64,000 bases of DNA, from assembly GCF_024298845.1 (NCBI RefSeq), contig NZ_CP101156.1:620001-684000 (forward strand), in the 5' to 3' direction. Made by a program: the position numbers and the translations under genes. Below the pieces are notes generated by a model. It saw only the letters and a program-made list of their open reading frames with translations, was not told the origin of the DNA and did no database searches. Source of the stretch: Natronosalvus amylolyticus (GTDB lineage Archaea; Halobacteriota; Halobacteria; Halobacteriales; Natrialbaceae). Shown one piece after another: positions 6,987 through 62,961 of this stretch; positions within the stretch are counted from its first letter, which is position 1; each line of letters begins with the position of its first letter.

Positions 6987-7005
6987 CTCGAGTCAAGGTC
7001 CGAGC

Positions 7006-8745
7006 ATGAGCAGTGACGACGTGTTCGACCACGGGAAAGACGAGCGACTGCAGAGTCGCGACGTGACAGAGGGTGCAGAACGGGCGCCACACAGAGCGAT
7101 GTTCCGCGCCATGGGCTTTGACGACGAAGACCTCGGTTCGCCGATGATCGGCGTACCGAATCCCGCAGCCGACATCACTCCCTGTAACGTGCACCTGGAT
7201 GACGTCGCTGATGCCGCCCTCGAGGGTGTCGACGACGCTGGCGGCATGCCGATCGAGTTCGGGACGATTACCATCTCCGACGCCATCTCGATGGGGACCG
7301 AGGGAATGAAAGCGTCGTTGATCTCGCGAGAGCTGATCGCCGACAGCGTCGAACTCGTGAGTTTTGGCGAACGGATGGACGGCCTGGTTACCGTCGCTGG
7401 CTGTGACAAGAATCTCCCGGGGATGATGATGGCCGCCATCCGCACCGACCTCCCGAGCGTATTTCTCTACGGTGGCTCGATCATGCCCGGCCAGCACGAG
7501 GGCCGAGACGTTACCATCGTCCAGGTGTTCGAAGGCGTTGGCTCCTACGCCACGGGCGAGATGGACGCCGACGAACTCGACGACCTCGAGCGCCACGCCT
7601 GTCCCGGAGCCGGTTCCTGTGGCGGCATGTTCACGGCCAACACCATGGCCTCGATATCGGAGGCACTCGGCATGGCCCCCCTGGGGAGCGCCTCACCACC
7701 AGCCGAAGACGAAGGTCGCTACGAAGTCGCCCGGCGTGCTGGCGAACTCGCCCTCGAGTGCGTCGAGGAAGACCGCCGACCATCCGATATCCTCTCCCGA
7801 AAATCCTTCGAGAACGCGATCGCCCTCCAGACGGCAATCGGCGGTTCGACCAACGGCGTCCTCCACTTGCTCGCGCTCGCCCGCGAAGCCGACGTCGACC
7901 TCGAGATCGAGGACTTCGACGAGATTTCGAAACGAACGCCGAAAATCGCTGACCTGCAGCCCGGTGGCACCCGCGTGATGAACGATCTCCACGAACTGGG
8001 CGGCGTTCCCGTCGTCATCCGCCGTCTGCTCGAGGCAGGACTGTTCCACGGCGACGCCGAAACCGTCACCGGTCGAACCATCGCCGAAGAACTGGCCCAC
8101 CTCGAAGCCAGTGGGGAACTCCACGACGACGAGGACCTCGAGGCCGACTTCCTCTATTCGGTGGACGACCCCAAGGAGAAAGAAGGGGCCATCAAGATAC
8201 TCGAGGGGAACCTGGCACCCGACGGAGCCGTGCTCAAAGTTACCGGGGACGATGCCTTCTACCACGAAGGACCCGCCCGAATTTTCGAAGACGAAGAGAA
8301 CGCCATGGCCTACGTCCAGGAAGGGCACATCGAGAGTGGCGACGTGATCGTCATCCGCAACGAGGGGCCAAAAGGCGGCCCCGGAATGCGTGAAATGCTC
8401 GGCGTCACCGCCGCCGTCGTCGGAGCGGGCCACGAAGAGGACGTCGCGCTGATCACCGACGGGCGCTTCTCCGGGGGCACTCGCGGCCCGATGATCGGTC
8501 ACGTCGCTCCAGAAGCGTTCGTCGGCGGTCCGATCGGATTGCTCGAGGAAGGCGACACCGTCACCGTAGACATTCCGGAGCGAACGCTCGAGGTGGACGT
8601 TGATGCCGACGAACTGACGGCCCGACGTGAGGCCTGGGAACAACCCGAACCAGTCTACGACGGCGGCGTACTGGCCAAATACTGTCGGGACTTCGATTCG
8701 GCAGCTAACGGTGCCGTGACGAACCCGCGGCTGACTCGAGATTGA
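7006..8745 (+). CDS. ilvD: Dihydroxy-acid dehydratase
   Basis: 579 residues. Dehydrates 2,3-dihydroxyisovalerate and 2,3-dihydroxy-3-methylvalerate to the 2-keto acids in valine, isoleucine and leucine synthesis. The three cluster cysteines are visible in [23 protein letters not shown] and [34 protein letters not shown] is the conserved C-terminal signature holding the catalytic serine region. Length is normal for the IlvD/Edd family, and the motifs favour IlvD over Edd. The start at 7006 gives [17 protein letters not shown] and is supported by the TATA spacing. No other ilv genes are in the window. Confidence 0.97.
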
Positions 8746-8868
8746 CGTTTTCTCGATCCACTCTCTTTTCCCGAATCTCTGTGTTTTCCAAAACCGCTGC
8801 GTTTTCGCGACACTTTCGCAGATTCGAAGCTGGCACTCGAGGAAGCAGCGACGTGAAAATAACAGTGA

Positions 8869-8921
8869 GTCGTTATTCTGTGACGCGAAAAGGACAGAGG
8901 GTCGTTATTCCGTGACGCGAA
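8869..8921. repeat. Duplicated 3' end of the beta-propeller gene (2 x 21 bp)
   Basis: GTCGTTATTCCGTGACGCGAA at 8901-8921, read on the minus strand, holds the last codons and TAA stop of the adjacent gene. It recurs at 8869-8889 with one mismatch, just beyond the stop. This is the same kind of terminus duplication as at 2163-2215. Confidence 0.85.
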
Positions 8922-10137
8922 CGCCGATCCCGTGGAAGTCGCTGTCCTCGTTGCCCTCGTCGGGTTCGATAACTGTGACGATTTCGCGGTCTTCGACACT
9001 CAGAACGGAGAACCCCGGCGTTTCGCCCTCAGCAGCGTGTGGGTCGCCGGAGAGCGGGTCCGGTCCGCGGAGGGTGACGAACATGTACTCGTCGTCCGGC
9101 GATCCCCACATGATGTCCGGTGCTGGACCGTAGTCCTCGATCTCGTCGATAACCTCGTTGGTTTCCGGGTCGACGACGAGTCCGTTGTCGGTCTCTCGGT
9201 TGAGAATCCAGAGCTCCTCGCCACCGGCAGTGAACCAGAAACCGTGTGCGTCGTAGCCGTCAGTGTCTCGAGCCACGTCTTCGGCTGAAAAGTCATCGAC
9301 CGGCTCGTTCGTCTCGGGATCGAGCGGCAGGTTCGTCTCGGTGTCGAGTGCGTACCACTCACCGACGCCGCCCGTCTCTTCGTGGTTGCTGGGCGCGCCT
9401 GCAGTGAAGTAGAAGGTCTCCTCGTCGGGGCTAGCCATCGTGCCACAGTTCGACCGAATCTCTCCCGGGCTGAACACCTGTTCGATCTCGAAGGCATCGT
9501 AGTCGACGACCACAACACCTGCGAAGTCGACGGACGGACCGAGCGTGTGATAGGAGTGTCCGTTCGCGTAATCGTGACAGATCGGTCGACCGCGGACGCC
9601 GTCGCCGTCAGCTGGGAACTCTTCGGCGCGGTCGGCGAATGCGGGTGCGTCGTCGATAACGATTTCGTCGACGATGTCGAACGATTCGTCCTCGAGGTCG
9701 GCGTCGACACGAACGATTGCGCCCTCGCCGATGGCGTCGACCTGGATGTACTCGTCGTCGGGCGTGAACCCGGCGAAGTGTGAGCCGGCACCGGTATCGA
9801 GATTCGCCACGAGTTCTCGGTCTTCGGTTCGGTAGACCAGCGTTTTGGCACCGGCCGTACAGGCGACGGCGGCGTACTCGTAATCAGCGCTGAAGTCGAC
9901 CATGTGTGGAACCTGGCCGAACTCGTCGACGTCCTCGTTGACGTCGATTTCGGCTACTGCTTCGAATTCGTCGTCACCGTCCGGTTCGTAGATGTAGATC
10001 TGGTCGGTCCCCTGATCGAGTGCCCATACTTCGTAGCTTGTGCCATCCGCATCGTCGCTGCCGAGACAGCCGGCGGCCGCAGTCAGGGTTGCCCCAGCTG
10101 TGCCGGCTAGAAACGAGCGTCGAGTTGTTTGCTTCAT
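8905..10137 (-). CDS. Tat-exported lipoprotein with YncE-like beta-propeller
   Basis: 410 residues. The N-terminus carries a twin-arginine signal (TRRSFLAGTAGATLTAA) followed by a lipobox-like AAGCLG, so the protein should be folded inside, exported by Tat and anchored by a lipid-modified cysteine at about residue 24. The rest is a series of blade-like repeats (EVWALDQGTDQIYIYEPDG, ACTAGAKTLVYRTEDRELVANLDTGAG, WILNRETDNGLVVDPETNEVIDEI) resembling YncE/cytochrome-D1-type propellers. A conserved-looking HFAGFTPD precedes a run of acidic loops. No heme motif is visible, so a binding or scaffold role is more likely than electron transfer. The ligand is unknown. The gene is monocistronic. Confidence 0.8.
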   Translation of the reverse strand: MKQTTRRSFLAGTAGATLTAAAGCLGSDDADGTSYEVWALDQGTDQIYIYEPDGDDEFEAVAEIDVNEDVDEFGQVPHMVDFSADYEYAAVACTAGAKTLVYRTEDRELVANLDTGAGSHFAGFTPDDEYIQVDAIGEGAIVRVDADLEDESFDIVDEIVIDDAPAFADRAEEFPADGDGVRGRPICHDYANGHSYHTLGPSVDFAGVVVVDYDAFEIEQVFSPGEIRSNCGTMASPDEETFYFTAGAPSNHEETGGVGEWYALDTETNLPLDPETNEPVDDFSAEDVARDTDGYDAHGFWFTAGGEELWILNRETDNGLVVDPETNEVIDEIEDYGPAPDIMWGSPDDEYMFVTLRGPDPLSGDPHAAEGETPGFSVLSVEDREIVTVIEPDEGNEDSDFHGIGVRVTE

Positions 10138-10357
10138 TCCTGTCTCAGTCTGAGAACTCGATAGCTAAAAGTTTGCGGGTTTCAGACTCTCTACCTGGCG
10201 AATATGGGGTTTTAACGTAGATGTAGGCAAAACTTGTGAGGAGTTTTCAGGGCTCGATTTTCACGCTGGTGTGCAGCGGCACACGCGCTCAAATCGGGGT
10301 GTTTGCTCGAGTCGGAACAGTAAATTTTGCCGTGTTCTGTGACAGTCGGGGCGTCGA

Positions 10358-11152
10358 CTATCGCTGCCCGGGCACACCAACGCTTTCGACGAACGATTCT
10401 CCCTCGAGCGCGCATCTGTACGCCGGTTTGTACATCATATTCGTCCCGCCGGCTTCGATAGCCCAGTCGTCGCGGAGTTCCTCGCGCAAATAATACTGTG
10501 CTCGTTCGTTACCCGGCTTCACGCGGTACTCGCTCATACGAATCGGGTCGGCGTCGAAGAGCCCGCCAGGTTCCCGCCCGTCGATCAGCACGACTGATTT
10601 GTCGGACAGATAGAGTTCCCCGTCCCCAGCCCGTTTCGTGTGTGCGTTTTCGGGGTGGGCCTCGAGAATCGCCGTCACGTCGTCGGCCGACAGGTCCGGC
10701 GTCACGACGTCGACCCGGTTCACGGTCATGTACCCGATCAGGTACCGATGGGCTCGTGCCTCCGGGTCGTCCTCACGACGGAGCCCGGCATAGAACCCGA
10801 CGACGTCCCCAGCCTCGAGTGTGCGAAGTCGTGATACGTAGCCGCTCGTTCGATGTTCGCCGTAGGTGAGTGCGTCGAAATTCGGGTCGTGGTGCAGTGG
10901 CCAATCCTCGAGTTCCTCGCCCGATATGGTGACGTCACCGTCTTGCACGGGTTGCGGGTGAATCCGGTTCGTCAGCGAGGCCGCACAGTCGTCGCGATAG
11001 CGAAAGGCCCAGGTGCCAAGCGTCTGCGTCTCCATCGTTGCTCGCGTTTTTTCCGGGATGGGCACGTATTCGAACGTCCCATCCGCGTACATCGGCCCAA
11101 GCGCCCCAACGTTGGTCGTATCAGAACCGATTCCTGCGAGGACAACAGTCAT
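10358..11152 (-). CDS. Nmad3-like putative nucleotide-modification-associated protein
   Basis: 264 residues from ATG at 11152. The N-terminus (TVVLAGIGSDTTNVGALGPMYADG, then FEYVPIPE) matches what I recall of Nmad3 (nucleotide modification associated domain 3): an initial strand, a small polar loop, and the FxYVPIPE signature. Later parts include HHDPNFDALTYGEH, LEAGDVVGFYAGLR and a basic C-terminal YYLREELRDDW. Nmad domains were defined by context with DNA hypermodification genes; the activity of Nmad3 is not established. Here no modification genes are adjacent; the neighbours are tRNA-Pro and a tRNA-trailing repeat, a common landing place for transferred DNA. The longer frame to 11377 runs through that repeat and is not coding. 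Confidence 0.6.
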   Translation of the reverse strand: MTVVLAGIGSDTTNVGALGPMYADGTFEYVPIPEKTRATMETQTLGTWAFRYRDDCAASLTNRIHPQPVQDGDVTISGEELEDWPLHHDPNFDALTYGEHRTSGYVSRLRTLEAGDVVGFYAGLRREDDPEARAHRYLIGYMTVNRVDVVTPDLSADDVTAILEAHPENAHTKRAGDGELYLSDKSVVLIDGREPGGLFDADPIRMSEYRVKPGNERAQYYLREELRDDWAIEAGGTNMMYKPAYRCALEGESFVESVGVPGQR

Positions 11153-11210
11153 GGTTAGGCGTCGGTTCGCTCGAGTCAAAACACTCGTGATTTCGCGGGC
11201 TGACTCGGAT

Positions 11211-11413
11211 GTAACGAGTGAATGAAGTGGGACCACGGTCGCAGCAAGGCTGCTCCCTGCTCCCATTTTCACGACGAAGCAAGCGAAGGAGCGAAGCGAC
11301 TGTAGCGAGCGAGAAGTGAAAATGGGACCGCCGAGATTGAGCAAACCCAACGGGTTTGCGATGTACGGCGGTCTCACGAATGAACGAGTGTAACGAGTGA
11401 ATGAAGTGGGACC
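11211..11413. repeat. tRNA-Pro-trailing mini-element bounded by 24-bp direct repeats
   Basis: GTAACGAGTGAATGAAGTGG and the following GACC occur at 11211-11234 and again at 11390-11413, the latter running into the 3' end of tRNA-Pro. Between them lie a hairpin core (11232-11259), an inverted pair TCCCATTTTCAC/GTGAAAATGGGA, and a further copy of the tRNA 3' end (GGGACCGCCGAGA) near 11330. A related unit follows tRNA-Thr. Confidence 0.75.
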
Positions 11414-11477
11414 GCCGAGAGTCGAACTCGAGTCCTACGGACCCCATCCGCAGAGGATACCACTACCCCACGGTCCC
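11408..11477 (-). tRNA. tRNA-Pro (anticodon GGG)
   Basis: On the minus strand the acceptor arms GGGACCG and CGGTCCC pair fully. The anticodon stem TGCGG/CCGTA encloses loop ATGGGGT, giving anticodon GGG, which reads CCC/CCU proline codons. The T-arm has loop TTCGACT with stem TCGAG/CTCGG. Length is 70 nt, with no intron and no encoded CCA. The 3' side is followed by copies of its own terminus (see the repeat at 11211-11413). Confidence 0.92.
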
Positions 11478-11524
11478 GCATTTGCATCGAGGCCGGTCGG
11501 TCGTTTAAGCGTGTCGTTTCTCGA

Positions 11525-12586
11525 TTAGGATCGCGGTGCGACGAGGTCGCCCTCGTCTCGAACTGCCAGGCTCGCCACCGCATCGTTTTCGTAGGTCGTG
11601 GGTGCACGCCAGCCGAGGACGTACCCGTCGTGCGGGGCCTCGAGCGTCTCGCGTACCGTCCCGTGGGGGGAGACGACGTCGGCGAGCACGTCACCCGCCT
11701 CGAACGGCACCCCCGTCTCCACACGTGGCCGGCAGAAGCCAGCTACGGAAGCCCGTGGACCCACGAATCGACGAACTGGATACGACACGGGCGACTCGAG
11801 TGTCGGTGTCTCACCTTTCATGTCCGGCATCTCGGGGAGCATCTCGAGATGAACCATCGCATGATACACGCCAGCTACCCCCGCTGCTCGATAGGGGTCT
11901 TCGATCGCGTGGTGGCTCCCGAGTTCGAACGTCAGCGCGGGAATCCCTGCCTCGTTCAACACCGCACCGGCGTTCGATCGGTGTAAGTTGCGGTCGGCGT
12001 ACTCTGTCGCGGGATACTCGTTCACGAGCGGAAGGGCCGTCGCTCGAGCCAGGGCCTCGAGTCTCGCTGCGAGCGCCGTTGCTTCAGACTCCGTGCGGGC
12101 CTCCCCGTAGAGAACGCGGTCTCGAATGACGAACGGTTCCGACCCAACCTGGGCGGTGTGCAGGTCGAGCAAGGCGTCGGCGGACTCGACGATCGTCTCG
12201 TACAGTCGTTCGTCGATCAGTTCCTGCACCCGACGGCCGGTGGTGTCGCCGGCATCGGTCGCTGGAAAGAACCGGTTTGGGTCGTCGTCGTGATAGTACG
12301 AGTGTCGGTTCGTCCGTCGAATCCCGGCCGGGTTACACATTGGCATACAGACGACCGTTCCGGAAAGCCCCTCGGGGACGCTCGAGCCGAGTACATCCTG
12401 CACGGCGGCGATACCCGTCGATTCGTTTCCGTGGACGCCACCGGTCACCCACAGCGTCGGCCCCGATTGCTCGCCACGCGCGATGGTCACTGGCAGTCGT
12501 TCGCTCCCGCCAGTTGGCAAGTCCGTCACCTCGAGATACCCGTGCTCGAGTTCCCCACGCTCTGCAGTCGCGGTTCCAATTTGCAT
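11525..12586 (-). CDS. Succinylglutamate desuccinylase/aspartoacylase family zinc hydrolase
   Basis: 353 residues from ATG at 12586; a longer frame would need a TTG at 12613. The zinc-carboxypeptidase-like site is visible: His and Glu in VHGNESTG (about residues 52 and 55), the third ligand His in LLDLHTAQ (about 143), and the likely catalytic Glu in ALTFELGSH. The C-terminal part (EAGDVLADVVSPHGTVRETLEAPHDGYVLGW) is a lipoyl/biotin-like beta barrel often seen in this family. Such enzymes deacylate N-acyl amino acids; the exact substrate cannot be read from sequence. There are no arginine-catabolism genes nearby, so AstE function is not implied. Confidence 0.82.
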   Translation of the reverse strand: MQIGTATAERGELEHGYLEVTDLPTGGSERLPVTIARGEQSGPTLWVTGGVHGNESTGIAAVQDVLGSSVPEGLSGTVVCMPMCNPAGIRRTNRHSYYHDDDPNRFFPATDAGDTTGRRVQELIDERLYETIVESADALLDLHTAQVGSEPFVIRDRVLYGEARTESEATALAARLEALARATALPLVNEYPATEYADRNLHRSNAGAVLNEAGIPALTFELGSHHAIEDPYRAAGVAGVYHAMVHLEMLPEMPDMKGETPTLESPVSYPVRRFVGPRASVAGFCRPRVETGVPFEAGDVLADVVSPHGTVRETLEAPHDGYVLGWRAPTTYENDAVASLAVRDEGDLVAPRS

Positions 12587-50000: not shown

Positions 50001-53000
50001 ATGCCACAGCCACACATATCCGACGATACGTCCCAGGGTCTCGCCGATCCCCAGGACGACCGCTCGAACTGCGGCGTCGGGGTCATCATGGATCTCGATG
50101 GCGGGTCGAGTCACGAAACCGTCTCAGACGCACTCGACTTGCTCATCAATCTCGAACATCGCGGCACTACGGGGGCGGAGAAAGACACCGGCGACGGGGC
50201 CGGAATCATGGTACAGACCCCGGACGCGTTTTTCCAGCACGTTCTCGATATCGACCTCCCTGATCTGTATGCTGTCGGTTCACTGTTTCTTCCGTCTGAT
50301 GATGCCGCTCGAGAAGCCATCGTCCCGATCGTGGAAACAGTGTTCGAGGAGTACGGTCTCGATGTGCTAACCTGGCGTGACGTCCCGACGAACAACGACG
50401 GCCTGGGAAAGACGGCTCTCGAGTCGGAACCTGACGTCTGGCAAGTGGTGGTTGTACCCGATGATACAATCGACCGCGAAACGTTCGACCGCCGCCTGTA
50501 CGTCGCCCGTCGAGCAGTGGAAAATCGCATCGAAGCGAGCGAAATCGACAACAGCGAACGGTTCTACATCTGCTCGCTCGATTCGAAAACGCTCGTCTAC
50601 AAAGGCCTGCTCAAGGGCGAACAGGTCCCGACGTACTATCCCGACCTCTCCGATGACCGATTCGCGTCGACGTTTGCCATGGTTCACGAGCGATTCTCGA
50701 CGAACACGCTCGGAGCCTGGCACCTGGCCCACCCATACCGGAACGTCGTCCACAACGGTGAGTTCAACACCATTCAGGGGAACGTCAACTGGATGCGCGC
50801 ACGAGAAACCGATCTCGAGAGCGAGGTTATCGACGATCTCGAGGCCGTCAAACCCATAATCAACGATCCGGACCAGTCGGACACGGCAAGCGTTGACAAC
50901 GCCCTCGAGTTGCTCATGCAAGACGGCCGTGACCTGGCACACGCCCTGCGGATGCTCGTTCCGGAGGCGTGGCGCGGTGACGACTCGATGGACCGGGCAC
51001 GCAAAGACTGGTACGACTTCCACGCCTCGCTCATCGAGCCCTGGGACGGCCCTGCACTGGTCGCCGCAACGGACGGCGAGCGCGTCGGTGCCGTCCTCGA
51101 CCGCAACGGACTTCGCCCCTGTCGGTACGACATCACGACGGACAACACACTGATCGTCGCCAGTGAAGCGGGCGCACTCGAGACCCCACCCGAACAGATC
51201 GAGTCGCGTGGTCGACTCCAGCCGGGACAGCTCTTCCTGGCCGATCCAGCGGAAGGTCGCGTGATTCCGGACGACGAAGTGTTCGAGGACCTCGTCGACG
51301 ACCGCTACGGCGAGTGGGTTCACGATCAACAGGTACACATCGACGAAATCACCGGCTCGAGTGAGCGAGCGCCCCAAAAAGCAGTTCCAGCGCTTCGGCC
51401 ACACCAGGCCGCCTTCGGCTACACCTACGACGAACTCGAGAATATGATCGAGCCGATGACCCAGAAAGGGAAAGACCCAGTCGGGTCGATGGGCGATGAC
51501 ACGCCGCTTTCGGTACTGACGGAGTTCAACCGACCGCTGTTCTCGTACTTCAAGCAGCTGTTCGCCCAGGTGACGAATCCGCCGCTCGATTACATCCGGG
51601 AGGAACTCGTCACTTCGATGGAATCGCGTATCGGTCACCAGCGTAACCTACTCGCAGAATCGTCCGAGCACGCCCGCCAACTGGTCGTCGATTCGCCGGT
51701 GCTGACGGACACCCAGTTCGAAGCCCTCTGCGACTGCGATCGAAACGACATCACGGCTGCGACGGTCGACATCACGTACGAGCGAGCTGACATCGACACC
51801 GAAGACGGTGTGACCGGCAAAGCGCTCGAGGCCGCAATAGAACGCGCCAGAGCCGACGCCGTCGAAGCAATCGAAGCCGGACACGACGTCGTCGTTCTCT
51901 CAGACCGTGGCGTCGACGCGGACCGGGTCGCGGTCCCGAGCTTGCTCGCGACCGGAGCCGTCCACCACCACCTCGTTCGGAACGGCCTCCGAAACCACGC
52001 CGGTATCGTCGTCGAATCCGCAGATCCACGAACGGTCCACCAGTTCGCGACGCTCGTCGGCTACGGGGCGGACGCGATAAACCCGTACCTCGCCTACCAG
52101 ACAATCGAAGACATCACTGCAGGGCCTGACGGCGCAGACATCGAGGTGGCCATCGACGCCTACGTGGGCGCACTCGAAGACGGCATCCTCAAGACGATGG
52201 CCAAGATGGGCATCTCGACCATCGAGAGCTACCAGGGTGCCCAGATTTTCGAAGCCGTCGGCCTCGACTCGAGTCTCGTGGACGAATACTTCGAAGGCAC
52301 GGAGAACCGGACCGAAGGTATCGGACTAGCCGAAATCGAGGCTGACCTCCTCGAGCGTCACGACGCAGCGTTCGACGTCGACGAAACCAAACTCGAGCGC
52401 CAGGGCGAATTCGAACACCGAACGGACGGCATCAAACATCAGTGGAACCCACAGACCGTCGGTACGCTCCAGCAAGCCGTCCGGTCGGGCGATTACGAGC
52501 GCTACCAGGAGTTCGCCGAACTGATCAACGACCAGTCGACGGAGTTACAGACGCTTCGGGGCCTGCTCGAATTCGACTCCGACCGAGACCCGATTCCGAT
52601 CGAGGAAGTCGAACCGGTGACTGATATCGTCGAACGATTCTCGACGGCCGCAATGAGCCTTGGCAGCCTCTCACCGGAGGCTCACGAGAACAACTCGGTC
52701 GCGATGAACCGAATCGGCGGTAAGTCCAACTCCGGCGAAGGTGGCGAGCCGCCGGAACGATTCGGCACCGAACGCGAGTGTAACGTCAAGCAGGTCGCCT
52801 CAGGACGATTCGGCGTCACGAGTACGTACCTCTCGAGTGCCGACGAGCTACAGATCAAGATGGCACAGGGCTCGAAACCCGGCGAAGGTGGCCACCTCCC
52901 CGGTTCGAAGGTCAACGAGATGATCGCTCACGTCAGGAAATCGACTCCAGGCGTTGGCCTCATTTCTCCGCCGCCCTTGCACGACATCTACTCTATCGAG

Positions 53001-54560
53001 GACCTCAAACAGCTGATTCACGACCTCAAAACCGCAAACGAGGACGCAGATATCAACGTCAAACTGGTTTCCGAAGCGGGCATTGGGACCATCGCAGCGG
53101 GCGTCGCCAAAGCGAACGCAGACGTCGTCCACATCTCCGGTCACTCGGGCGGCACCGGGGCGTCGCCGCGCACCTCGATCAAACACGCCGGCCTCCCGTG
53201 GGAACTCGGATTGGCCGAAGCCAACCAGATGCTCTGTGCAACCGGGCTACGTGATCGAATCCGCGTCTCCACCGACGGCGGGATGAAAACGGGCCGTGAC
53301 GTCGCTGTTGCCGCCCTGCTCGGCGCAGAGGAGTACATCTTCGGGACCGCCAGTCTCGTCGCGGAGGGATGTGTGATGGCCCGTCAGTGCCACAAAAACA
53401 CCTGCCCGGTCGGCATCGCGACCCAGCGTGGCGACCTCCGGAAGCGCTTCCCGGGCGAACCCGACAACGTGATCAACTACATGACGTTCATCGCCCAGGA
53501 ACTGCGCGAGATCATGGCCGAACTCGGCTTCCAAACCGTCGAGGAGATGATCGGTCACGTCGAGGTTCTCTCACAGCGCGAGGATGTTGCGCATCCGAAA
53601 GCACGACGCGTCGACCTCTCCGGTGTCCTCGCCACCCCGGAAGGCGACGTCAGAACCAAGATCAGCGAACAGGACCACGAACTCGAGGACCAACTCGACC
53701 GGACGCTCATCGATCAGGCACGCGATGCGATCGATACCCAGGAGCCCACCACGCTCTCGACGTCGATTTCGAACGTCGACCGCGCCGTCGGAGCCATGCT
53801 CTCGAACCGGGTTACGAGTCGCTATGGCGAACCCGGGCTCCCCGAGGATACGCTCACGATCGACCTCGAAGGCACGGCCGGGCAGAGTTTCGGCGCGTTC
53901 CTCGCCAACGGCGTCTCCCTCCACCTCGAGGGAAGTGCCAACGACTACGTCGGCAAGGGACTCTCCGGCGGCAAGGTAACCGTTCGGACTCCCGAAACGG
54001 CGACGTACGACCCACTGGAGAACGTCGCCATCGGCAACGTTGCTCTGTACGGCGCCACTGGTGGTGAAGCCTACATCAACGGCGTTGCCGGCGAACGGTT
54101 CGCCGTCCGTAACTCCGCCGCGAAGGCCGTCGTCGAAGGCGTCGGTGACCACGGCTGTGAGTACATGACTGGCGGGGTCGTCGCCGTACTCGGTGAAACT
54201 GGCAAGAACTTCGCCGCCGGTATGTCCGGCGGTGTGGCCTACGTGTTCGATCCGGAATCGGAACTCGCAGCCAAAGCCAACACCGGCATGGTGTCGCTCT
54301 ACGACGAACTGGACGAATCCGACGAGGCCATCCTCGAGCGACTCATCGAGAACCACGTCGCCTACACCGGCTCCGAACGCGGCCAGGCCCTGCTCGAAGA
54401 CTGGGATGGCGCACTCGAGGCGTTCGTGAAGGTCATGCCCGACGCCTACCACCAGGCGATCACCGAAGACGGTCGTGACGACGTCCGCGCTGAGCTGCCA
54501 GAAACGCCAGAAACGCCAGTCCAACCCGAGTCGACCGGCTACGCGGCCAGCGACGACTGA
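50001..54560 (+). CDS. gltB: Glutamate synthase large subunit (alpha)
   Basis: 1519 residues. Transfers the amide of glutamine to 2-oxoglutarate to give two glutamates. The N-terminal glutaminase domain has the nucleophile Cys 24 in SNCGVGVIMDL, after a 23-residue presequence that must be removed, and EHRGTTGAEKDTGDGAG follows. The central domain precedes the FMN-binding synthase barrel (EAHENNSVAMNRIGGKSNSGEGGEPPERF, SGHSGGTGASP). The 3Fe-4S cysteines are in CVMARQCHKNTCPVG (about 1124-1136). The C-terminal GXGXG beta-helix domain has repeated GGxxG motifs. The NADPH-binding small subunit gltD is not adjacent; it may use ferredoxin or a distant partner. Confidence 0.96.
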   Translation: MPQPHISDDTSQGLADPQDDRSNCGVGVIMDLDGGSSHETVSDALDLLINLEHRGTTGAEKDTGDGAGIMVQTPDAFFQHVLDIDLPDLYAVGSLFLPSDDAAREAIVPIVETVFEEYGLDVLTWRDVPTNNDGLGKTALESEPDVWQVVVVPDDTIDRETFDRRLYVARRAVENRIEASEIDNSERFYICSLDSKTLVYKGLLKGEQVPTYYPDLSDDRFASTFAMVHERFSTNTLGAWHLAHPYRNVVHNGEFNTIQGNVNWMRARETDLESEVIDDLEAVKPIINDPDQSDTASVDNALELLMQDGRDLAHALRMLVPEAWRGDDSMDRARKDWYDFHASLIEPWDGPALVAATDGERVGAVLDRNGLRPCRYDITTDNTLIVASEAGALETPPEQIESRGRLQPGQLFLADPAEGRVIPDDEVFEDLVDDRYGEWVHDQQVHIDEITGSSERAPQKAVPALRPHQAAFGYTYDELENMIEPMTQKGKDPVGSMGDDTPLSVLTEFNRPLFSYFKQLFAQVTNPPLDYIREELVTSMESRIGHQRNLLAESSEHARQLVVDSPVLTDTQFEALCDCDRNDITAATVDITYERADIDTEDGVTGKALEAAIERARADAVEAIEAGHDVVVLSDRGVDADRVAVPSLLATGAVHHHLVRNGLRNHAGIVVESADPRTVHQFATLVGYGADAINPYLAYQTIEDITAGPDGADIEVAIDAYVGALEDGILKTMAKMGISTIESYQGAQIFEAVGLDSSLVDEYFEGTENRTEGIGLAEIEADLLERHDAAFDVDETKLERQGEFEHRTDGIKHQWNPQTVGTLQQAVRSGDYERYQEFAELINDQSTELQTLRGLLEFDSDRDPIPIEEVEPVTDIVERFSTAAMSLGSLSPEAHENNSVAMNRIGGKSNSGEGGEPPERFGTERECNVKQVASGRFGVTSTYLSSADELQIKMAQGSKPGEGGHLPGSKVNEMIAHVRKSTPGVGLISPPPLHDIYSIEDLKQLIHDLKTANEDADINVKLVSEAGIGTIAAGVAKANADVVHISGHSGGTGASPRTSIKHAGLPWELGLAEANQMLCATGLRDRIRVSTDGGMKTGRDVAVAALLGAEEYIFGTASLVAEGCVMARQCHKNTCPVGIATQRGDLRKRFPGEPDNVINYMTFIAQELREIMAELGFQTVEEMIGHVEVLSQREDVAHPKARRVDLSGVLATPEGDVRTKISEQDHELEDQLDRTLIDQARDAIDTQEPTTLSTSISNVDRAVGAMLSNRVTSRYGEPGLPEDTLTIDLEGTAGQSFGAFLANGVSLHLEGSANDYVGKGLSGGKVTVRTPETATYDPLENVAIGNVALYGATGGEAYINGVAGERFAVRNSAAKAVVEGVGDHGCEYMTGGVVAVLGETGKNFAAGMSGGVAYVFDPESELAAKANTGMVSLYDELDESDEAILERLIENHVAYTGSERGQALLEDWDGALEAFVKVMPDAYHQAITEDGRDDVRAELPETPETPVQPESTGYAASDD

Positions 54561-54617: not shown

Positions 54618-57600
54618 TTACCCACCCGTCTGTTCATCGGGGAGTTCCGCACAGCCAAGTGAGTGATGGGTACAAAACCGACAGGCATGCCCCGGATTGG
54701 TCTCGTCGTATCTCGGATCGTCGACCGCCTCGAGCGTGTCCAGGACCGATTCCCACGAGGGGATCTCCTCGAGCGAAACGTGATCGACCCGTGTCGAATC
54801 GACATCTCCAACGTAGACGTATCCGACGGCATCGACCGGCTCGTCGAACTGTCGCGCACAGGCTCGAGCGTACAGCGATAACTGGGTTGCCATCGCGGGC
54901 TCGATTCGCTCGCCAACCGTCTTGTAATCGAAGACGCCGAGTCGGCCGTCGGGAAGTCGCCGCACGGTGTCGATGTAGCCGATGACAGCGCCGTCGATAC
55001 CGGGAACGTCGTCGACTTCGAACGCCAACTCGGCGGCCAGTTCGTCCCACTCGTGAAACGGGACGTCGAACGCAGGTGTCGTGGCCTCGAAGTAACGGTC
55101 GATACAGCGTTGGACGGCTTCTTCGTGCCCTCGCTCACCTCGAGCCGTGAGTTCCCTGGTGGCTGCCTCGTGCCACGCTTCGGGAGTATTCTCGTTGCGA
55201 TAAAAGGCCGCTTCGGCGACCGCGTGAAAGACCGTCCCGACCAGACGGGCATTTCCATCGGCCCGTGATGGAGGGGGAGCCGTGTCAGCTTCACCACCAT
55301 TCGCCTGTGCCTGTACGCCTGCTACCGAGTCGTCGAAGGCCCCCACCACGTGGTCGAGATAGTGCTTTCGCGGACACTCCGCGTGGGTCTCGAGTGCGCT
55401 GTAACTGTGTCTGAGTGCGCCGGGGATCGTCGAATCGCCAAGTGAACTGACGTCAGTGACCGAGAAGCGAGTGGCGGCATCGACAGTGGCACCGAGGCGT
55501 CTCGTTTTCGGCACGTCGAAGGCTTCGGTGTATGGCGCGGCGTCCGCCGCTGGGAGCAACCGACGGGACCGAAGGTGGGCCCCAAGGGTAGTTATCGTCT
55601 CCAGCGCTTCAGGGGTCGATACCATCGTCTCCCCGTCATCGTAGGAGACCATTCCACCAACCGACGCATCGGCCTCTGCGAGTTCGGCGGTCGCGTCGAC
55701 GACGCTTTCTGGGTATTCGGCCTCGAGACGTTCGAAACTCGCGGTGAGGGCTGGCCAGAGGTCCATTCGCTCGCCAGCGACCGACCACTCGAGATCCGCT
55801 GCCAGACATGCCTCGACGACACTGCGGCCGAGTGCGTTCTCATCTCCTTCGTAATCGTACTCAGATCCGAAGACGAACAGATGATCTTCTGCTCGAGTCA
55901 ATGCGACGTGAAGCACGCGCCAGGCTTCGGCGAGTGGCTCGGTCGCCAGATCGCTTGCCAGCGGTGTGTCAATCGCGGGATCGAGCGCGGCGCTCAACAG
56001 CCGATGTCTGGAACTGTAGGCGTAATCGCCACGGACACACCAGTGCTCGTCGGAGAGAAACGGCACCAGGACCGTATCGAACTGCAGGCCTTTGGCCTGA
56101 TGGACGGTCATAATGTCGACCGAATCAGTCGAGGTGGTCCCCTGCTGTCGGTCACTCGACCCCGAACGCAATACGCTCTCGAGTGCATCGACGACTCGCG
56201 GCGAAAGCGAGCCGAGAACGTCACCGCCATCGTAGGCGTCGACAAAACGATGTAACCGATCGAGTGCCCGGTCATCGTCCGGGCCCAGAAACCACTTCAT
56301 ACGCGTCCGTTCTTCGAACCGCTCGAGAAATGGCGAGAGTGGGTAGGCGTCTCTGTCTGCAACGAGCGACCGTAAGTGGATCCTGGCCCGCTCGATACGT
56401 TCCGGTTCATCAACCCGTTCAGGATCGGTCTCAAGCAACGCGCTATACAACCCATCGGTATCGAGTTCGTGAAGGCGTTCGAGGTCCGTTTCGGACAATC
56501 GATACCGAAGCAACAAGACGCGACGGAGGTGGGTATCGTTCTCTGACGGCTCGGCGATCACCCGGAGATACGACAGGAGGGTCTGGACTCCCGGCGAGAC
56601 GGTGCCGGCGGGTGAACCCGACTGTTCGTACGGGATCTGGCGCGCCTCGAGTTCGTCCGCGACTGCACTCGCCTGGGCGTTCGTCCGAACGATGACGGCG
56701 ATATCCTCGAGTCGGCGCTTTGCAACGCCGTCGAACTCGTCGGTCAACAGGCGAGCAACCGTCATCCCAACTTGCTCCGGCGTAGACCAACCCAGTTCGT
56801 CGCTATCGACTTTGACGACGTGTCGGGTGGAATCGGTGTCTTTGCTCGAGACCGGTGCCGTCGATCCGTCAGGTTTCCGTCCGTACTCGCGGAGCGTTTT
56901 CGACGAGTGACCGCCGTAGTCACAGTAGTTCGTCAGATCGAGTATTTCCTGTTTCGAACGGTAGTTGAGGCCGAGTTCGACAGACTCGTGATCAGTGTAG
57001 GCATCACCCAACCGCTCGAGTCCGTGCGGATCGGTGCCGCGCCATCCGTATATCGCTTGGTCAGTATCACCGATAGCGAGGAGTTCGGGTCGGTCTGGAC
57101 CCGTCGTCAGTTCCGACACCAACTGGTACTGGGTTCGGTCGGTATCCTGAAATTCGTCACAGTATACGTGCGTATACTCGGCCGCGATTTCGTCGGCGAC
57201 CGTCTCGTCAGAAAGCAGGCGGGTCGCTGTCCGGACGAGTTCGTCGAAATCGAGCGTTCCTTCCTCGGCCTGCAGTTCCCGGTAATCGCGATAGATAGCC
57301 GTGTACTGTCTCGCCTCGCGCAGGACGCCAATGTAGTGTTCGAGTCGACCGATCGGGGTTTGCTCGATGGTAGCCGTCTGTTCTCGCCAGAGTTGATTTC
57401 GAAACAACACTGGGGCGAGATGCTTCGTCGTCGGGTCATCGAGCGTGAGCGATTCGTGGACGTTCGTCACACAGGATTGGAGCGAGCGAAGATACCGTTC
57501 GACGTCTCGGACGACCCCATCCTCTCGAAAATCTGCCGGCGCTTCGGCGATTTTCTCCCGGCAGAACGTCAGCAACTTCCCGTACTCGACCAGTGCGCCA

Positions 57601-58262
57601 CGGGCATCCTCGAGGTGTTCGTCTCGATTGAAAAATCGAAACGCCTCGTTGTCAAACGACAGCCCACTGGCTGCTTCCTGGCGAAGCCACAACAGCAGTT
57701 CGTCGAGAAGATCGATCGTCCGTGCATCGGGGAGGTGACCCTCGAGCGTGTCTGGGTCGATATCGTCTCGGCTCATTACGGCGATAAATTCGTCGACCGC
57801 GTCGGCCAGCGTCTCAGGGGTGGCGCCTTCGCTCGAGCCCGCGGTTTCGTCGACGAATGCGTAATCACGCTCGGTGAGCAGTCGTCTGACCAGTCGATAC
57901 CGATCTCGCTCGGTGACGATATCGAACGATGGAGACAACCCGAGATAGTAGGCATACTCACGAACCAGTCGGTGACAGAACGAATGATAGGTGTAGACGT
58001 CGATTTCGGCAGCGATCGCAGGGTCGAGTCGGTTCGCTATCGACGACCGGATGTTCGAGGCCGCTTCGTTAGCGAACGTTAACACGAGAATATCGCTGGG
58101 ATCAGTACCTTCGTCAGCGAGCGTTCGCTCGAGTCGCATGAGCATCGTCGTCGTTTTCCCCGTACCGGCACCGGCATCGACGGAGATACACGCGGCATCG
58201 CTGTCGATGACCGCCGGCTGATTGCCACGGGGAACGCTGGGTTCGCCCTCCTTATCTGCCAT
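54618..58262 (-). CDS. UvrD/AddA-like helicase with C-terminal PD-(D/E)XK nuclease and Fe-S type cysteines
   Basis: 1214 residues. SF1 helicase motifs: Q motif near NQPAVID, Walker A GAGTGKTT (31-38), motif II VYCDEFQDTD (about 367-375), motif III IGDTDQAIYGWRG, motif IV LNYRSKQEI, motif V TVHQAKGLQFDTV, motif VI LHVALTRAED. The C-terminal 270 residues form a RecB-like nuclease: ECPRKHYLDHVV, FHAVAEAAF (metal His), GYIDTVRRLPDGRLGVFDYKT (Asp and DxK) and, at the end, CRFCTHHSLGC. The four cysteines, one early and three late, match the iron-sulfur clasp known from AddB/Cas4/Dna2-type nucleases. It probably resects DNA ends with the two upstream partners, whose genes overlap it. Confidence 0.9.
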   Translation of the reverse strand: MADKEGEPSVPRGNQPAVIDSDAACISVDAGAGTGKTTTMLMRLERTLADEGTDPSDILVLTFANEAASNIRSSIANRLDPAIAAEIDVYTYHSFCHRLVREYAYYLGLSPSFDIVTERDRYRLVRRLLTERDYAFVDETAGSSEGATPETLADAVDEFIAVMSRDDIDPDTLEGHLPDARTIDLLDELLLWLRQEAASGLSFDNEAFRFFNRDEHLEDARGALVEYGKLLTFCREKIAEAPADFREDGVVRDVERYLRSLQSCVTNVHESLTLDDPTTKHLAPVLFRNQLWREQTATIEQTPIGRLEHYIGVLREARQYTAIYRDYRELQAEEGTLDFDELVRTATRLLSDETVADEIAAEYTHVYCDEFQDTDRTQYQLVSELTTGPDRPELLAIGDTDQAIYGWRGTDPHGLERLGDAYTDHESVELGLNYRSKQEILDLTNYCDYGGHSSKTLREYGRKPDGSTAPVSSKDTDSTRHVVKVDSDELGWSTPEQVGMTVARLLTDEFDGVAKRRLEDIAVIVRTNAQASAVADELEARQIPYEQSGSPAGTVSPGVQTLLSYLRVIAEPSENDTHLRRVLLLRYRLSETDLERLHELDTDGLYSALLETDPERVDEPERIERARIHLRSLVADRDAYPLSPFLERFEERTRMKWFLGPDDDRALDRLHRFVDAYDGGDVLGSLSPRVVDALESVLRSGSSDRQQGTTSTDSVDIMTVHQAKGLQFDTVLVPFLSDEHWCVRGDYAYSSRHRLLSAALDPAIDTPLASDLATEPLAEAWRVLHVALTRAEDHLFVFGSEYDYEGDENALGRSVVEACLAADLEWSVAGERMDLWPALTASFERLEAEYPESVVDATAELAEADASVGGMVSYDDGETMVSTPEALETITTLGAHLRSRRLLPAADAAPYTEAFDVPKTRRLGATVDAATRFSVTDVSSLGDSTIPGALRHSYSALETHAECPRKHYLDHVVGAFDDSVAGVQAQANGGEADTAPPPSRADGNARLVGTVFHAVAEAAFYRNENTPEAWHEAATRELTARGERGHEEAVQRCIDRYFEATTPAFDVPFHEWDELAAELAFEVDDVPGIDGAVIGYIDTVRRLPDGRLGVFDYKTVGERIEPAMATQLSLYARACARQFDEPVDAVGYVYVGDVDSTRVDHVSLEEIPSWESVLDTLEAVDDPRYDETNPGHACRFCTHHSLGCAELPDEQTGG

Positions 58263-59388
58263 CGAATCGCACCTCCGCTTCGATGTAGTCGCTACAGCAG
58301 ACGGTGTACGGGCACTCCGAACAGGATTCCCGTCGAATTAGCTCCCAGGGAACGGGTTCGTACTCGTCGTCGATAGCGCGACGAGCGACGGTTTGCAGTC
58401 GATCGTCGACCGTTCGGTTCCGGTGTTCGTGTGTCAGTCCAAACGTGTGATGGTCGAGATATCGGTCGGTGAGGTCTATCGATTCGAGCTCGACAGAAAT
58501 CTGATCTCGAAACCGGTTGATCGTTCGATTCTGGCGGTCCACCAGCGGAACCTGCACGTATCGGCAGGTTCGAACCGAGTCGAGATTGGCCTGGTCGCGG
58601 AGGGTTCGTAGCCCGCCGAGCACCACCGAAATCTCGAAAAGACTCGAGACCAGTCCGGGGTCGAACGTTTCGGTTTCCGAATCGAAATGATCGAGAAAAG
58701 CCTGTTCGACGTCGCCGTCCCATCGGTTTCGATACCGAAGCAAGCCGAGGTGCGCCGGGGTCGGCACGAGTTTGACTCCGACGAGCGTTGATCCCTCGAC
58801 CGTGGCGTAATCGATCTCGGCCGTGAGTCGAGCCGTCGAATGCTGGTCTAGCGCCGATTCCTCCTCGGATGCCTCCTCTGGCAGGTTGTGCCCAATCTGT
58901 ACCGTCGTGGCCACTGGCAACGTCGGACCGATGAGTTCCCTGGCGGTCGATTGGGTAGACAAGGACGCGATCCCCTCGAGATGCTCGGCTCCACAGTGGT
59001 CGACGTAGGCCTCGAGTGTCGCCTCCATCACGCGATGTTCGTGACGACGCTGGACAGCAGAGTGAAACCGTTCGGTGTGTCCTTCCCACAGCGTTCGGAA
59101 TCGATTTTGGATGTGACGAATCAACTGCTCTGGGTCGTCGGTAGCTCCATCATCCGTGGTTGCCGCCCAGCGAAATCCATCACAGATCGCGGTTCGGAGT
59201 AACTCGAGTCGGTCGACGGCAGTGTCGTCGGGTGGTGACCTGAGCGATCGCTCGTGTGCGAACTGGAATTTGCGTGGGCACTCGAGATACGCACCCAGAC
59301 CCTCGACGGTCAGCGTGGGTTGTCCGGTGTCCTGGGGGTGCGCTGGCTGCTCACCCCCCGAAGCGTCGGATCGGGGCGATTCAGTCAT
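58252..59388 (-). CDS. Four-cysteine PD-(D/E)XK-like protein with degenerate catalytic core
   Basis: 378 residues. It resembles the C-terminal nuclease half of AddB: an early cysteine in GLGAYLECPRKFQFAHE (Cys 37) and a late cluster CSECPYTVCCSDYI (Cys 356, 359, 364, 365) like an iron-sulfur clasp. The middle holds AEIDYATVEGSTLVGVKLVP where a nuclease would have Asp then D/E-x-K; the Asp and Lys remain but the acidic residue before Lys is missing, so activity is doubtful. Its stop overlaps the start of the helicase gene by 11 bases and its start overlaps the preceding stop by 4 bases. Confidence 0.75.
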   Translation of the reverse strand: MTESPRSDASGGEQPAHPQDTGQPTLTVEGLGAYLECPRKFQFAHERSLRSPPDDTAVDRLELLRTAICDGFRWAATTDDGATDDPEQLIRHIQNRFRTLWEGHTERFHSAVQRRHEHRVMEATLEAYVDHCGAEHLEGIASLSTQSTARELIGPTLPVATTVQIGHNLPEEASEEESALDQHSTARLTAEIDYATVEGSTLVGVKLVPTPAHLGLLRYRNRWDGDVEQAFLDHFDSETETFDPGLVSSLFEISVVLGGLRTLRDQANLDSVRTCRYVQVPLVDRQNRTINRFRDQISVELESIDLTDRYLDHHTFGLTHEHRNRTVDDRLQTVARRAIDDEYEPVPWELIRRESCSECPYTVCCSDYIEAEVRFDGR

Positions 59389-61637
59389 CGACGCACCTCG
59401 CCTGCGGCGAACTCGAACTGCGTGCGGATCGCTTCCCGCAGCGTCGGATCGAGCCCATCGTCTTCGAGCAACAGGGCCATCTCCTGGAAGTGTGACTCGG
59501 TTTCGGCCAGGTCGACCGGTTCACCCATCGAGGCCCGTCGGCGAACGCGCTCGAGTTCGCCCCACGGCTCACCAAGCAACGACTCGAGGGTACGCTGTGG
59601 GCCATAGACCCGGCCGTCCTGTGTGGTTGACTCGACGTCTGCGATCCTGATCGAACTCGAAGCCTTGAGTTCTCGCACATATCGTGATTCGTCGTGGGTT
59701 CGACGCAATCCATCCGTCTCGCGTTCGTAGGAGCAAAAATACAGCCGGTCAGTCGCGGCCCTCGAAGCCAGTGCGAGCCGTCGTCGGCCTCGCTCGACGT
59801 GATAGGTTTCGAACCGGTCACTGACGCTTTCGGGATCGGTGACCGTCTCGAACGTCTCCTCGAGTTCCCCAATGGTGGGGTCGGTGACTGCCGGAAACGC
59901 ATCCATCGATCGAACCCACGCGGTCGGGAACAGCGACGTCAAAAACTGTGAGCCGGGATAGACGGTGTCGTTGCAATCGAGGACGAACACCGCGTTGGCC
60001 GTGGCGTAGGCGAGTTCGTCGACGGGACAGACGGTGACACCACCCTCGGCCGTGCTCGAGTCGATCGTGTGGACGTGGGGAGCGTCGTACTCGATCGTTC
60101 GCGCAACCATGCGCTGGAGCCCGTCCCAGTCGGGTGAAACGAGATCCGTCCGTTCGACGAAACGTGCGATCTCACGTATTCGTTCGACGCTGTCGAACTG
60201 CTCGCGAGCATCGACCCACGATTCTCCGTCCGCGATTCGCCCCTTGAGAGCCGTTCGTTCGATCCAGCGATCGAGCGTCGTGTGGACGGCGTGGTCTCGA
60301 CACTCGACCAGTAACTCCGGACTGAACGAATCGACGCGTGCCTCCAGACGTCGGAGAACAGCCTCGTCCCAGTCGATAGCGTCGGTCGGTGTCTCTGCAC
60401 CGATTTCGGTAGCCTCGTGCTCGAGGGTCTGTTGGGCTCGGATGACGGCGTACAGCTCGGACACTGCAGGGTCCGTGGCTAACGACGGTGTGCCAATAGT
60501 CGCAGTTGGAACGCCGGCTTCCCGGAGTCGCCGTCGAGCCCAGGGAACGCGTTCGGCCCGAGACACACCGACGACGAACTCGTCGAACGACCAGTCGTGA
60601 CGATCACGGAGTGAGCCGATTTCCGTGGCCACCAGCCGCGTCTGTTCGCGAGCGGTTTCGGTGCGAATACGGAACGCGTGTGGCTGCACCCCTGTCCCGG
60701 ATTTTCCCGAGCTTGTGTCAGCAGCTTGCACCGACCGGTGGCAGTCACTGTGCGCGTCGTCAACGGAACCGGTCGCGAGCCAGTTGATGATCGGCCGATG
60801 GCGTACTCCGGACGGGGCAGAACGTGCTGGGTGGCGGTGTTCGAGTGAGTCGGCTATCGTCTCGAGCGAACCAGGTTCGACCCGCGTCCGCTCGACGCTG
60901 GCGTGGCGCTGGCCGACACAGACCAGCTCAGTGTCACCCGTTAACGCCGCGAGATACCGGCGGTCGAGTTCGCGAAACTCCTCGAACTGGACCGTGAGGA
61001 CGGCATCGACGCCCGCCGTGATACGGTCACGGACACCGTCTGCATTGTCCTCGAGTACGTCGACTGCGCGTGGAATAACGTCTGCGCGTTCGATGAACCC
61101 TCGAGCGTCAAGTTCGGCGTGGAACCGATCGTTCATCGCGTAGAGGAACTCGAGGCAGGGATGCATGTCGTCACCGTTCCCAGCTGTCGAGTGGGTGTGT
61201 CGCTGTCTGGTGACCTCGAGCAACAACTGTCCGACGTCACGAGCGAAGCTCTCGTGCTCGCGTGCCCGCTCGAGATAGGGTGGGATATCGCGTTTGGCAC
61301 CGGCGATGACGAGCGAGATCAGTTCGATTCGCTCTTCGTACTCGAGGCGGTCGATGGTCGGGTCGAACGCTTCGATGACTTTGGAGGCGTGTTCGGGGAG
61401 CGATTCGACGTTCGGCGCTGGCACCAAGCCCGCATCGCGACTTGCGCTGGCGAGGGTTCGCTCGAGTTCCTCGAGTCCGGCCGGATGGCGTTTCACCACG
61501 AGCACGTTTTTCGCCCCGTGGGCCGCCGCCAGCCGGGTGTATGCTTCGGCTACACACTCGAGGACGTCGGTACGAGGATACTCGAGGGCAATGAGTGTCC
61601 CCTCGAGTGTGGATGCGGAGGAACCTGGTGGGGACAT
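59385..61637 (-). CDS. AddB/RecC-like inactivated helicase-fold protein
   Basis: 750 residues from ATG at 61637; a GTG at 61649 is possible. There is no Walker A: the N-terminal segment reads STLEGTLIALEYPRTDVLECVAEAY where GxGKT would sit. Yet the order of segments resembles an SF1 fold: VKRHPAGLEELERTL, ITAGVDAVLTVQFEEFRELDRRYL in the place of motif II, and VFVLDCNDTVYPGSQFLTSLFP followed by SRAATDRLYFCSY near the end. This matches AddB and RecC, which lost ATPase but scan DNA for Chi-like signals. The protein ends where a normal AddB would continue into its nuclease domain; that part seems to be the next gene. First gene of the three-gene operon. Confidence 0.7.
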   Translation of the reverse strand: MSPPGSSASTLEGTLIALEYPRTDVLECVAEAYTRLAAAHGAKNVLVVKRHPAGLEELERTLASASRDAGLVPAPNVESLPEHASKVIEAFDPTIDRLEYEERIELISLVIAGAKRDIPPYLERAREHESFARDVGQLLLEVTRQRHTHSTAGNGDDMHPCLEFLYAMNDRFHAELDARGFIERADVIPRAVDVLEDNADGVRDRITAGVDAVLTVQFEEFRELDRRYLAALTGDTELVCVGQRHASVERTRVEPGSLETIADSLEHRHPARSAPSGVRHRPIINWLATGSVDDAHSDCHRSVQAADTSSGKSGTGVQPHAFRIRTETAREQTRLVATEIGSLRDRHDWSFDEFVVGVSRAERVPWARRRLREAGVPTATIGTPSLATDPAVSELYAVIRAQQTLEHEATEIGAETPTDAIDWDEAVLRRLEARVDSFSPELLVECRDHAVHTTLDRWIERTALKGRIADGESWVDAREQFDSVERIREIARFVERTDLVSPDWDGLQRMVARTIEYDAPHVHTIDSSTAEGGVTVCPVDELAYATANAVFVLDCNDTVYPGSQFLTSLFPTAWVRSMDAFPAVTDPTIGELEETFETVTDPESVSDRFETYHVERGRRRLALASRAATDRLYFCSYERETDGLRRTHDESRYVRELKASSSIRIADVESTTQDGRVYGPQRTLESLLGEPWGELERVRRRASMGEPVDLAETESHFQEMALLLEDDGLDPTLREAIRTQFEFAAGEVRR

Positions 61638-61665
61638 CGGGTATGACACCGAATAGTGGCAGGAT

Positions 61666-62574: not shown

Positions 62575-62961
62575 ATGGACGACATTTTCGTTGCCCGACT
62601 GATGACCTCGGAGCCAGTGACGATCAGTGCCGACACGCTCGTCGAAGACGCCGGACAGACCATGCTCGAGAACGGTATCGGCTCGCTCATCGTCGTCGAC
62701 GATGACGGCCACCTCGAGGGAATCTTGACGACGACCGACTTCGTCACCATCGTCGCCGAAAGCTTCCCGAAAGCACAGACGACCGTCTCACGCTACATGT
62801 CTACCGAAGTCGAAACCGCTTCGCCCCAACAGCCGATTCTCGAGGTTGCCGACGCGATGCTCGAGCACGGCTTCCACCACATGCCCGTGACGGATAAAGA
62901 CGGCAGCGTCGTCGGTATCATCTCGACGACCGATCTGGCCGGCTACCTTTCGAAGATATAG
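62575..62961 (+). CDS. Two-CBS-domain protein
   Basis: 128 residues, almost entirely a Bateman module. CBS 1 spans about 3-60 (ARLMTSEPVTISADTLVEDAGQTMLENGIGSLIVVDDDGHLEGILTTTDF) and CBS 2 about 66-128 (SRYMSTEVETASPQQPILEVADAMLEHGFHHMPVTDKDGSVVGIISTTDLAGYLSKI). Such stand-alone proteins bind adenine nucleotides or related ligands and regulate partner proteins; the partner is unknown. A strong TATA box upstream and compact size suggest leaderless expression. Confidence 0.92.
   Translation: MDDIFVARLMTSEPVTISADTLVEDAGQTMLENGIGSLIVVDDDGHLEGILTTTDFVTIVAESFPKAQTTVSRYMSTEVETASPQQPILEVADAMLEHGFHHMPVTDKDGSVVGIISTTDLAGYLSKI

Follow-up and report, generated by a model that had tools for sequence, protein, structure and literature searches.

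A conserved three-gene helicase-nuclease system of haloarchaea, probably a split AddAB/RecBCD-type variant

A three-gene locus conserved in Halobacteria

We analyzed a 64,000-nucleotide stretch of the genome of Natronosalvus amylolyticus (here called the window), which corresponds to positions 620001 to 684000 of contig C1 in a genome of 4.2 Mb and five contigs. Its minus strand carries, in the order B, N, A, three genes that probably encode the haloarchaeal form of an AddAB/RecBCD-type DNA-end processing complex. The open reading frames were confirmed, and they overlap as a preliminary description of the window had claimed, by 4 bases between B and N and by 11 bases between N and A:

59385-61649, minus strand: B, 754 amino acids (alternative start ATG at 61637), predicted AddB/RecC-type helicase-like subunit
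58252-59388, minus strand: N, 378 amino acids, subunit with a RecB/Cas4-like nuclease fold that has four cysteines but has lost its catalytic residues
54618-58262, minus strand: A, 1214 amino acids, UvrD-type superfamily 1 (SF1) helicase fused to an intact PD-(D/E)XK nuclease of the iron-sulfur (Fe-S) type

The preliminary description had staked its proposal on a conserved linkage of the three genes, and this is what we observed: they lie on one strand and in one order in 127 of 127 complete loci (111 distinct), all from Halobacteria, which is well beyond what chance would produce. Within a class-wide sample, B was present in 54 of 145 genomes, namely, in 32 of the 36 sampled members of the window's own family, the Natrialbaceae (counted by hand from the results table, own genome included), and in 22 of 109 genomes elsewhere. 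Scanning 84,980 species genomes returned 93 relatives, and the best 80 of these 93 were all haloarchaeal. No relative of B was found in a scan of viral contigs or in a phage collection, and a phage origin of the system is therefore not supported.

A combines the motor with an intact nuclease

A had been described as a full helicase-nuclease, and Pfam agrees, with matches to the N-terminal UvrD helicase domain (E value, 5e-53), UvrD_C (2e-23), and PDDEXK_1 (1e-18):

57003-58199, minus strand: UvrD helicase N-terminal domain (Pfam), with Walker A GAGTGKT at residue 31 and DEFQD at residue 369
55869-56978, minus strand: UvrD helicase C-terminal domain (Pfam)
54660-55406, minus strand: PD-(D/E)XK nuclease domain, with H 1013, D 1098, DYK 1112-1114, and QxxxY
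55374-55376, minus strand: Cys963, first cysteine of a predicted Fe-S clasp, invariant in 121 of 121 sequences
54651-54683, minus strand: Cys1194, Cys1197, and Cys1204, remaining cysteines of the predicted clasp, invariant in 121 of 121 sequences

Helicase motifs, nuclease motifs, and the four cysteines are kept in all 121 sequences, save for the motif-I glutamate in 2 of them. A hidden Markov model of the nuclease domain returned AdnA as its first match, and a tree of A sets the haloarchaeal proteins apart from both outgroups.

B has a helicase fold without motor motifs

B matched no Pfam family and no AddB model among the NCBIfam equivalogs, and single-sequence searches of the PDB with B and with N gave no match, so that profiles were needed. 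A profile of B found UvrD1 (7e-9), AddB (1.3e-7), PcrA (8e-6), and AdnA (2e-3) in the PDB. The AlphaFold model of B (predicted local distance difference test score [pLDDT], 85.6) matched UvrD in Foldseek with an E value of 9e-21, and its best query-normalised TM-scores, 0.63 to 0.64, were all to AddB chains. A Walker A motif was not found in B, and loose G-rich strings occur elsewhere in 8 of 127 relatives. The product of 59385-61637 thus has the Walker-less SF1/AddB fold that had been expected of it, and B is, as judged from profiles and the model, a predicted AddB/RecC-type helicase half.

N occurs in a nuclease-live and a nuclease-dead state

N is indeed a separate four-cysteine nuclease-like protein, and four-cysteine modules could be confirmed in both A and N:

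59278-59280, minus strand: Cys37, first cysteine of a predicted Fe-S clasp, invariant in 127 of 127 loci
58294-58323, minus strand: Cys356, Cys359, and Cys365, remaining cysteines of the predicted clasp, invariant in 127 of 127 loci
58810-58812, minus strand: Asp193 (motif II), the sole catalytic-site acid left; VGVKL replaces DYK in motif III

It matches PDDEXK_1 in Pfam exactly at the cut-off of 22 bits, and its AlphaFold model (pLDDT, 86.6) has AdnA, Cas4, and RecE as nearest Foldseek neighbors (best, AdnA at 1.8e-3). A profile of N compared with the PDB gave only chance zinc-finger matches. That N had lost a catalytic acid was correct with respect to the DxK acid but understated the change, as the histidine and glutamate of motif I and the QxxxY motif are also gone. 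At the level of sequence, the system of the window has, as proposed, one intact motor, one intact nuclease, and two four-cysteine modules.

Scoring N on twelve diagnostic columns over the 127 loci gave a clean two-way split into 50 live proteins, in which all nuclease residues are intact (C-H-E-D-D-Y-K-Q-Y-C-C-C) and which are probably still able to cut, and 77 dead ones. All 77 dead proteins, among them those of the window and of nearly all Natrialbaceae, have retained the motif-II aspartate along with the four cysteines, and none keeps the histidine, the glutamate, the DxK aspartate, the glutamine, or the tyrosine; at the position of the DxK lysine, most of them have arginine, and the window has lysine. 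In a tree built from A alone, the two states of N form two clades with supports of 98 and 99, separated by one change. Because homologous nucleases are intact, the catalytic loss appears to be the derived state. The description of N as a partly inactivated AddB half therefore suits the clade of the window but not the 50 sister loci, one of which lies in the same genome.

The loss of all but one catalytic residue could also mean that dead N is a functionless relic on its way out. This is very improbable: the loss occurred once on the tree, the frame is open in 77 loci, the four cysteines and Asp193 are invariant, and the ratio of nonsynonymous to synonymous substitution rates (dN/dS) of dead-clade N is 0.11 to 0.39 in eleven pairs, somewhat above that of B and A and well below 1. 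Dead N is therefore under purifying selection and is not decaying, and we rejected a pseudogene on these dN/dS values. The retention of the cysteines after the catalytic loss suggests that the predicted Fe-S clasp of N has a job of its own.

B and N together resemble a split AddB

Methanogens harbor adjacent addB and addA genes in the same order as B-N-A (pairs L207-L215). Their AddB is a single protein of about 1020 to 1050 amino acids, whose nuclease motifs are intact and which has four cysteines, while their AddA has no such cysteines. When B was compared by hhalign with AddB, UvrD-Cas4, AddA, and haloarchaeal A, the best match was the motor of methanogen AddB (E value, 1.4e-11), ahead of UvrD-Cas4 (3.9e-8). 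The alignment of B with methanogen AddB runs from residue 15 onward (P 97.8), and the start of N coincides with that of the AddB nuclease half, at residues 708 to 760 (P 92), so that the two together look like a split AddB.

A different ancestry has to be considered, in which B plus N on one side and A on the other arose from duplicated UvrD-Cas4-like fusions, as an independent invention resembling AdnAB, and the likeness to AddB reflects convergence of inactivated SF1 helicases. In line with it, the nuclease domains of both N and A best match that of the solo UvrD-Cas4 fusions of methanogens (in profile comparison, the domain of A is closest to their Cas4-like domain), hmmsearch with the B profile found these solo fusions at 1e-21 and AddB at 1e-9, and UvrD1 ranked above AddB when the same profile was run against the PDB. 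However, profile-profile comparison favors not only AddB for B but also AddA for the motor of A (score, 460 versus 394 for UvrD-Cas4), the Foldseek TM-scores of B are highest for AddB, and the gene order copies addB-addA. We therefore regard this ancestry as unlikely. Five methanogen proteins (L202-L206) had come up as candidates for an unsplit AddB and were rejected, their profile matches being those of solo UvrD-Cas4-type proteins. These fusions, of about 1020 to 1046 amino acids, are the closest relatives that we found of the haloarchaeal nuclease domains.

Several further points weigh against an AddAB/RecBCD-type assignment. The 127 loci were pooled from two collections with partial repeats, which leaves the 111 distinct ones. 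A scored 138 bits with the NCBIfam equivalog addA_Gpos, whose cut-off is 707.65, and Foldseek gave no match below 1e-3 for N. In AddAB, the four-cysteine clasp is present only in the partner nuclease, whereas both N and A harbor four cysteines here. Additionally, live-clade N resembles the Cas4-like domain of UvrD-Cas4 fusions (1e-13) more closely than the AddB nuclease (2.5e-4). Since the nuclease domains of live N and of A are nearest to UvrD-Cas4, N may be a nuclease recruited into the AddB position and not a split-off half of AddB. The proposed AddB origin of N is thus backed by the split alignment but not by its nuclease domain, which, like that of A, lies closer to UvrD-Cas4 than to AddA or AddB. 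Overall, we still consider an AddAB/RecBCD-type end-processing complex the probable identity of B-N-A.

The two clades differ in genomic context

The genome of N. amylolyticus contains a second, nuclease-live B-N-A set on contig C4 (99,460 bp; locus at 5242-11649), which is probably a plasmid. The B protein encoded there shares 98% identity with its counterpart on pAArc1-01 of Natrarchaeobaculum sulfurireducens, and the set has as neighbors a divergent AAA-DUF4143 ATPase gene, a convergent gene for a 375-amino-acid protein, and a gene for a PLD protein. The live clade as a whole is scattered. It occurs in 15 plasmid records of haloarchaea, including eight at 90 to 98% identity that come from eight genera; one of the plasmids has a VirB4-type gene nearby. 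Its neighbors are defense genes, including BREX-5 PglZ, a type III restriction-modification-like pair, TmtA, an N6-methyltransferase, and Mrr. The most divergent plasmid-borne set, from Haloplanus rubicundus, has BREX-5 PglZ and a number of restriction-modification genes as neighbors. Directly upstream of B, and in the same direction, 14 of the 50 live loci (11 of 41 distinct) harbor an Argonaute-PLD pair, with a PLD-B spacing of 5 bases in 13 of these 14. This Argonaute-PLD-B-N-A run, together with the divergent AAA-DUF4143 ATPase gene, is strongly conserved across haloarchaeal genera, and the context of the live clade points to a role in defense.

The APAP system, which consists of an Argonaute and the PLD protein AgaP, restricts plasmids and a single-stranded DNA virus in haloarchaea (PMC11442185). 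A helicase gene close to some of the ago-agaP operons is mentioned in that study, which does not describe the three-gene machine (PMC11442185). Judging from gene type and arrangement, the pair upstream of live B-N-A is most likely APAP. Such Argonautes are believed to depend on a helicase, for which this association supplies a concrete candidate.

An Argonaute or PLD gene was absent from all 77 N-dead loci. The operon of the window has as neighbors genes for GltB, a membrane protein, a CBS-domain protein, and a methyltransferase, and a gene for a RecD-type 5'-3' motor is not among them:

50001-54560: gltB-like gene (glutamate synthase, recognised by eye), convergent with the 3' end of A
62575-62961: gene for a CBS-domain protein, neighbor of the operon

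The CBS-domain gene adjoins the operon in 49 of the 77 nuclease-dead loci, which reflects either a functional link or merely a stable neighbor. With its near-universal presence in the family and this steady neighbor, the dead clade behaves as a chromosomal core gene would.

The company of the live clade raises the question of whether the chromosomal system is likewise an anti-plasmid or anti-virus defense that destroys invading linear DNA, the catalytic loss in N tuning its destructive activity. Besides the defense islands of the sister clade, the scores of A to GajB models speak for this view. Against it, none of the N-dead loci has the Argonaute-PLD pair, and the occurrence of the dead form in 32 of 36 family members, often beside the same CBS gene, is the pattern of a core gene. 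Any UvrD helicase would give such GajB scores, no GajA model was matched by B or N, and no GajA gene adjoins A; Gabija was therefore rejected as the identity of the system. A defensive role of the chromosomal form seems rather improbable to us.

The system is additional to other end-resection genes

End resection in haloarchaea is described as the work of Mre11-Rad50, and HerA-NurA is known from thermophiles. In the genome studied here, HerA-, NurA-, Rad50-, and Mre11-like genes lie side by side on contig C1 (1363.7-1371.5 kb), and the B-N-A system is therefore additional to them. The preliminary description had let haloarchaeal resection rely on these enzymes, and B-N-A does not replace them. 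HerA and NurA have been stated in a review to be absent from Haloferax volcanii (PMC7776575); contrary to this, the NurA profile matches the H. volcanii genome as well, as it does 140 of 141 Halobacteria. We thus rejected the idea that B-N-A substitutes for a missing HerA-NurA. The picture of haloarchaeal end resection would change with a third machine, of AddAB/RecBCD type, present across almost an entire family.

The genome holds further genes of this general kind. On contig C5, at about 411 to 417 kb, an overlapping pair encodes a 934-amino-acid protein with a central PD-(D/E)XK domain, which has no PADLOC or NCBIfam name, and a 982-amino-acid UvrD-nuclease; it is possibly another helicase-nuclease system. 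Another PDDEXK_1 domain is encoded at 24810-25505 of C1, within an open frame of 940 codons located some 600 kb from the window.

Proposed working of the complex

The following scheme is drawn by analogy with AddAB and RecBCD, and we infer the assembly of the complex, cluster binding, polarity, substrate, and role. A would be the one 3'-5' SF1 motor and would carry the sole active nuclease. B, an inactivated helicase, would act as an AddB/RecC-like channel and scaffold that guides a strand, and N would stand, as a protein of its own, for the nuclease half at the AddB position; in the window, it would be a structural element with a clasp. Once the complex had loaded on a double-strand end, A would unwind that end, and the nuclease of A alone would cut the emerging strand. 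The chromosomal complex would accordingly have a single motor, a single working nuclease, two Fe-S clasps, and a dead partner resembling RecC. It would most likely serve housekeeping end processing or degrade linear DNA, side by side with Mre11-Rad50-HerA-NurA. On plasmids, the sister form with its live nuclease would work in defense islands, partly with the Argonaute-PLD system.

A more far-reaching idea assigns the mobile form, whose two nucleases are both live, to a five-gene Argonaute-PLD-helicase-nuclease immune system as a working component. The chromosomal form would then have been domesticated by killing the second nuclease while the clasp was kept, independently repeating the step proposed to lead from an AddAB-like enzyme to RecBCD. 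We put this forward tentatively, as conceivable but somewhat short of probable.

Comparison with known systems

We judge the system to be real, conserved, and, as had been suspected, underdescribed. The database names of the live-clade genes are generic ("DNA helicase UvrD" or "PD-(D/E)XK nuclease family protein"), and the three-gene system was not described in the open literature that we searched, a phrase search that did not cover subscription journals and cannot exclude an earlier annotation.

AddAB works with a single SF1A motor and a nuclease for each of the two strands, and the dead helicase of its AddB subunit reads Chi (PMC4824097). With AddAB (RexAB), including that of methanogens, B-N-A shares one SF1A motor with a nuclease, a helicase-dead partner with a four-cysteine nuclease, and overlapping genes in the same order. 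A corresponds to the motor subunit, an SF1A UvrD-type helicase with a C-terminal RecB-type nuclease and intact motifs, and B corresponds to the partner, a helicase fold without working ATPase motifs. However, the partner of AddAB is one polypeptide, whereas B and N are separate genes in every complete locus, and its nuclease is intact, whereas the corresponding nuclease is dead in 77 loci, that of the window among them, and intact in the 50 sister loci. Because the partner is split, the predicted clasp is on both proteins, and the second nuclease is dead, the system is not a member of AddAB by strict tests but probably a variant within the AddAB/RecBCD class.

In RecC, a nuclease domain that has become inactive forms a passage for a strand, and a proposal in the literature places AddAB at an intermediate stage toward RecBCD (PMC1185551). 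On motif content, B-N-A would share with RecBCD a RecC-like partner made of an inactive helicase and an inactive nuclease, here two proteins (B and N), and a RecB-like A with the only active nuclease. It differs in that no RecD motor gene lies beside the operon and in that the dead nuclease keeps four cysteines and is a separate protein.

The actinobacterial AdnAB likewise has UvrD-like motors with RecB-like nucleases, and AdnA was the first match of both N in Foldseek and the nuclease model of A. However, AdnA and AdnB are both full length with live nucleases, while here only A is full length and the partner is split and helicase dead. UvrD-Cas4-like fusions, which are often defense associated and stand alone or with restriction-modification genes (Hudaiberdiev et al. 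2017, PMC5704561), have the domain order of A and the nuclease closest to its own, but no B or N partner has been described for them, and the motor of A is nearer to AddA. APAP probably shares its Argonaute-PLD pair with the live B-N-A loci, whereas the pair is absent from all loci of the window's clade.

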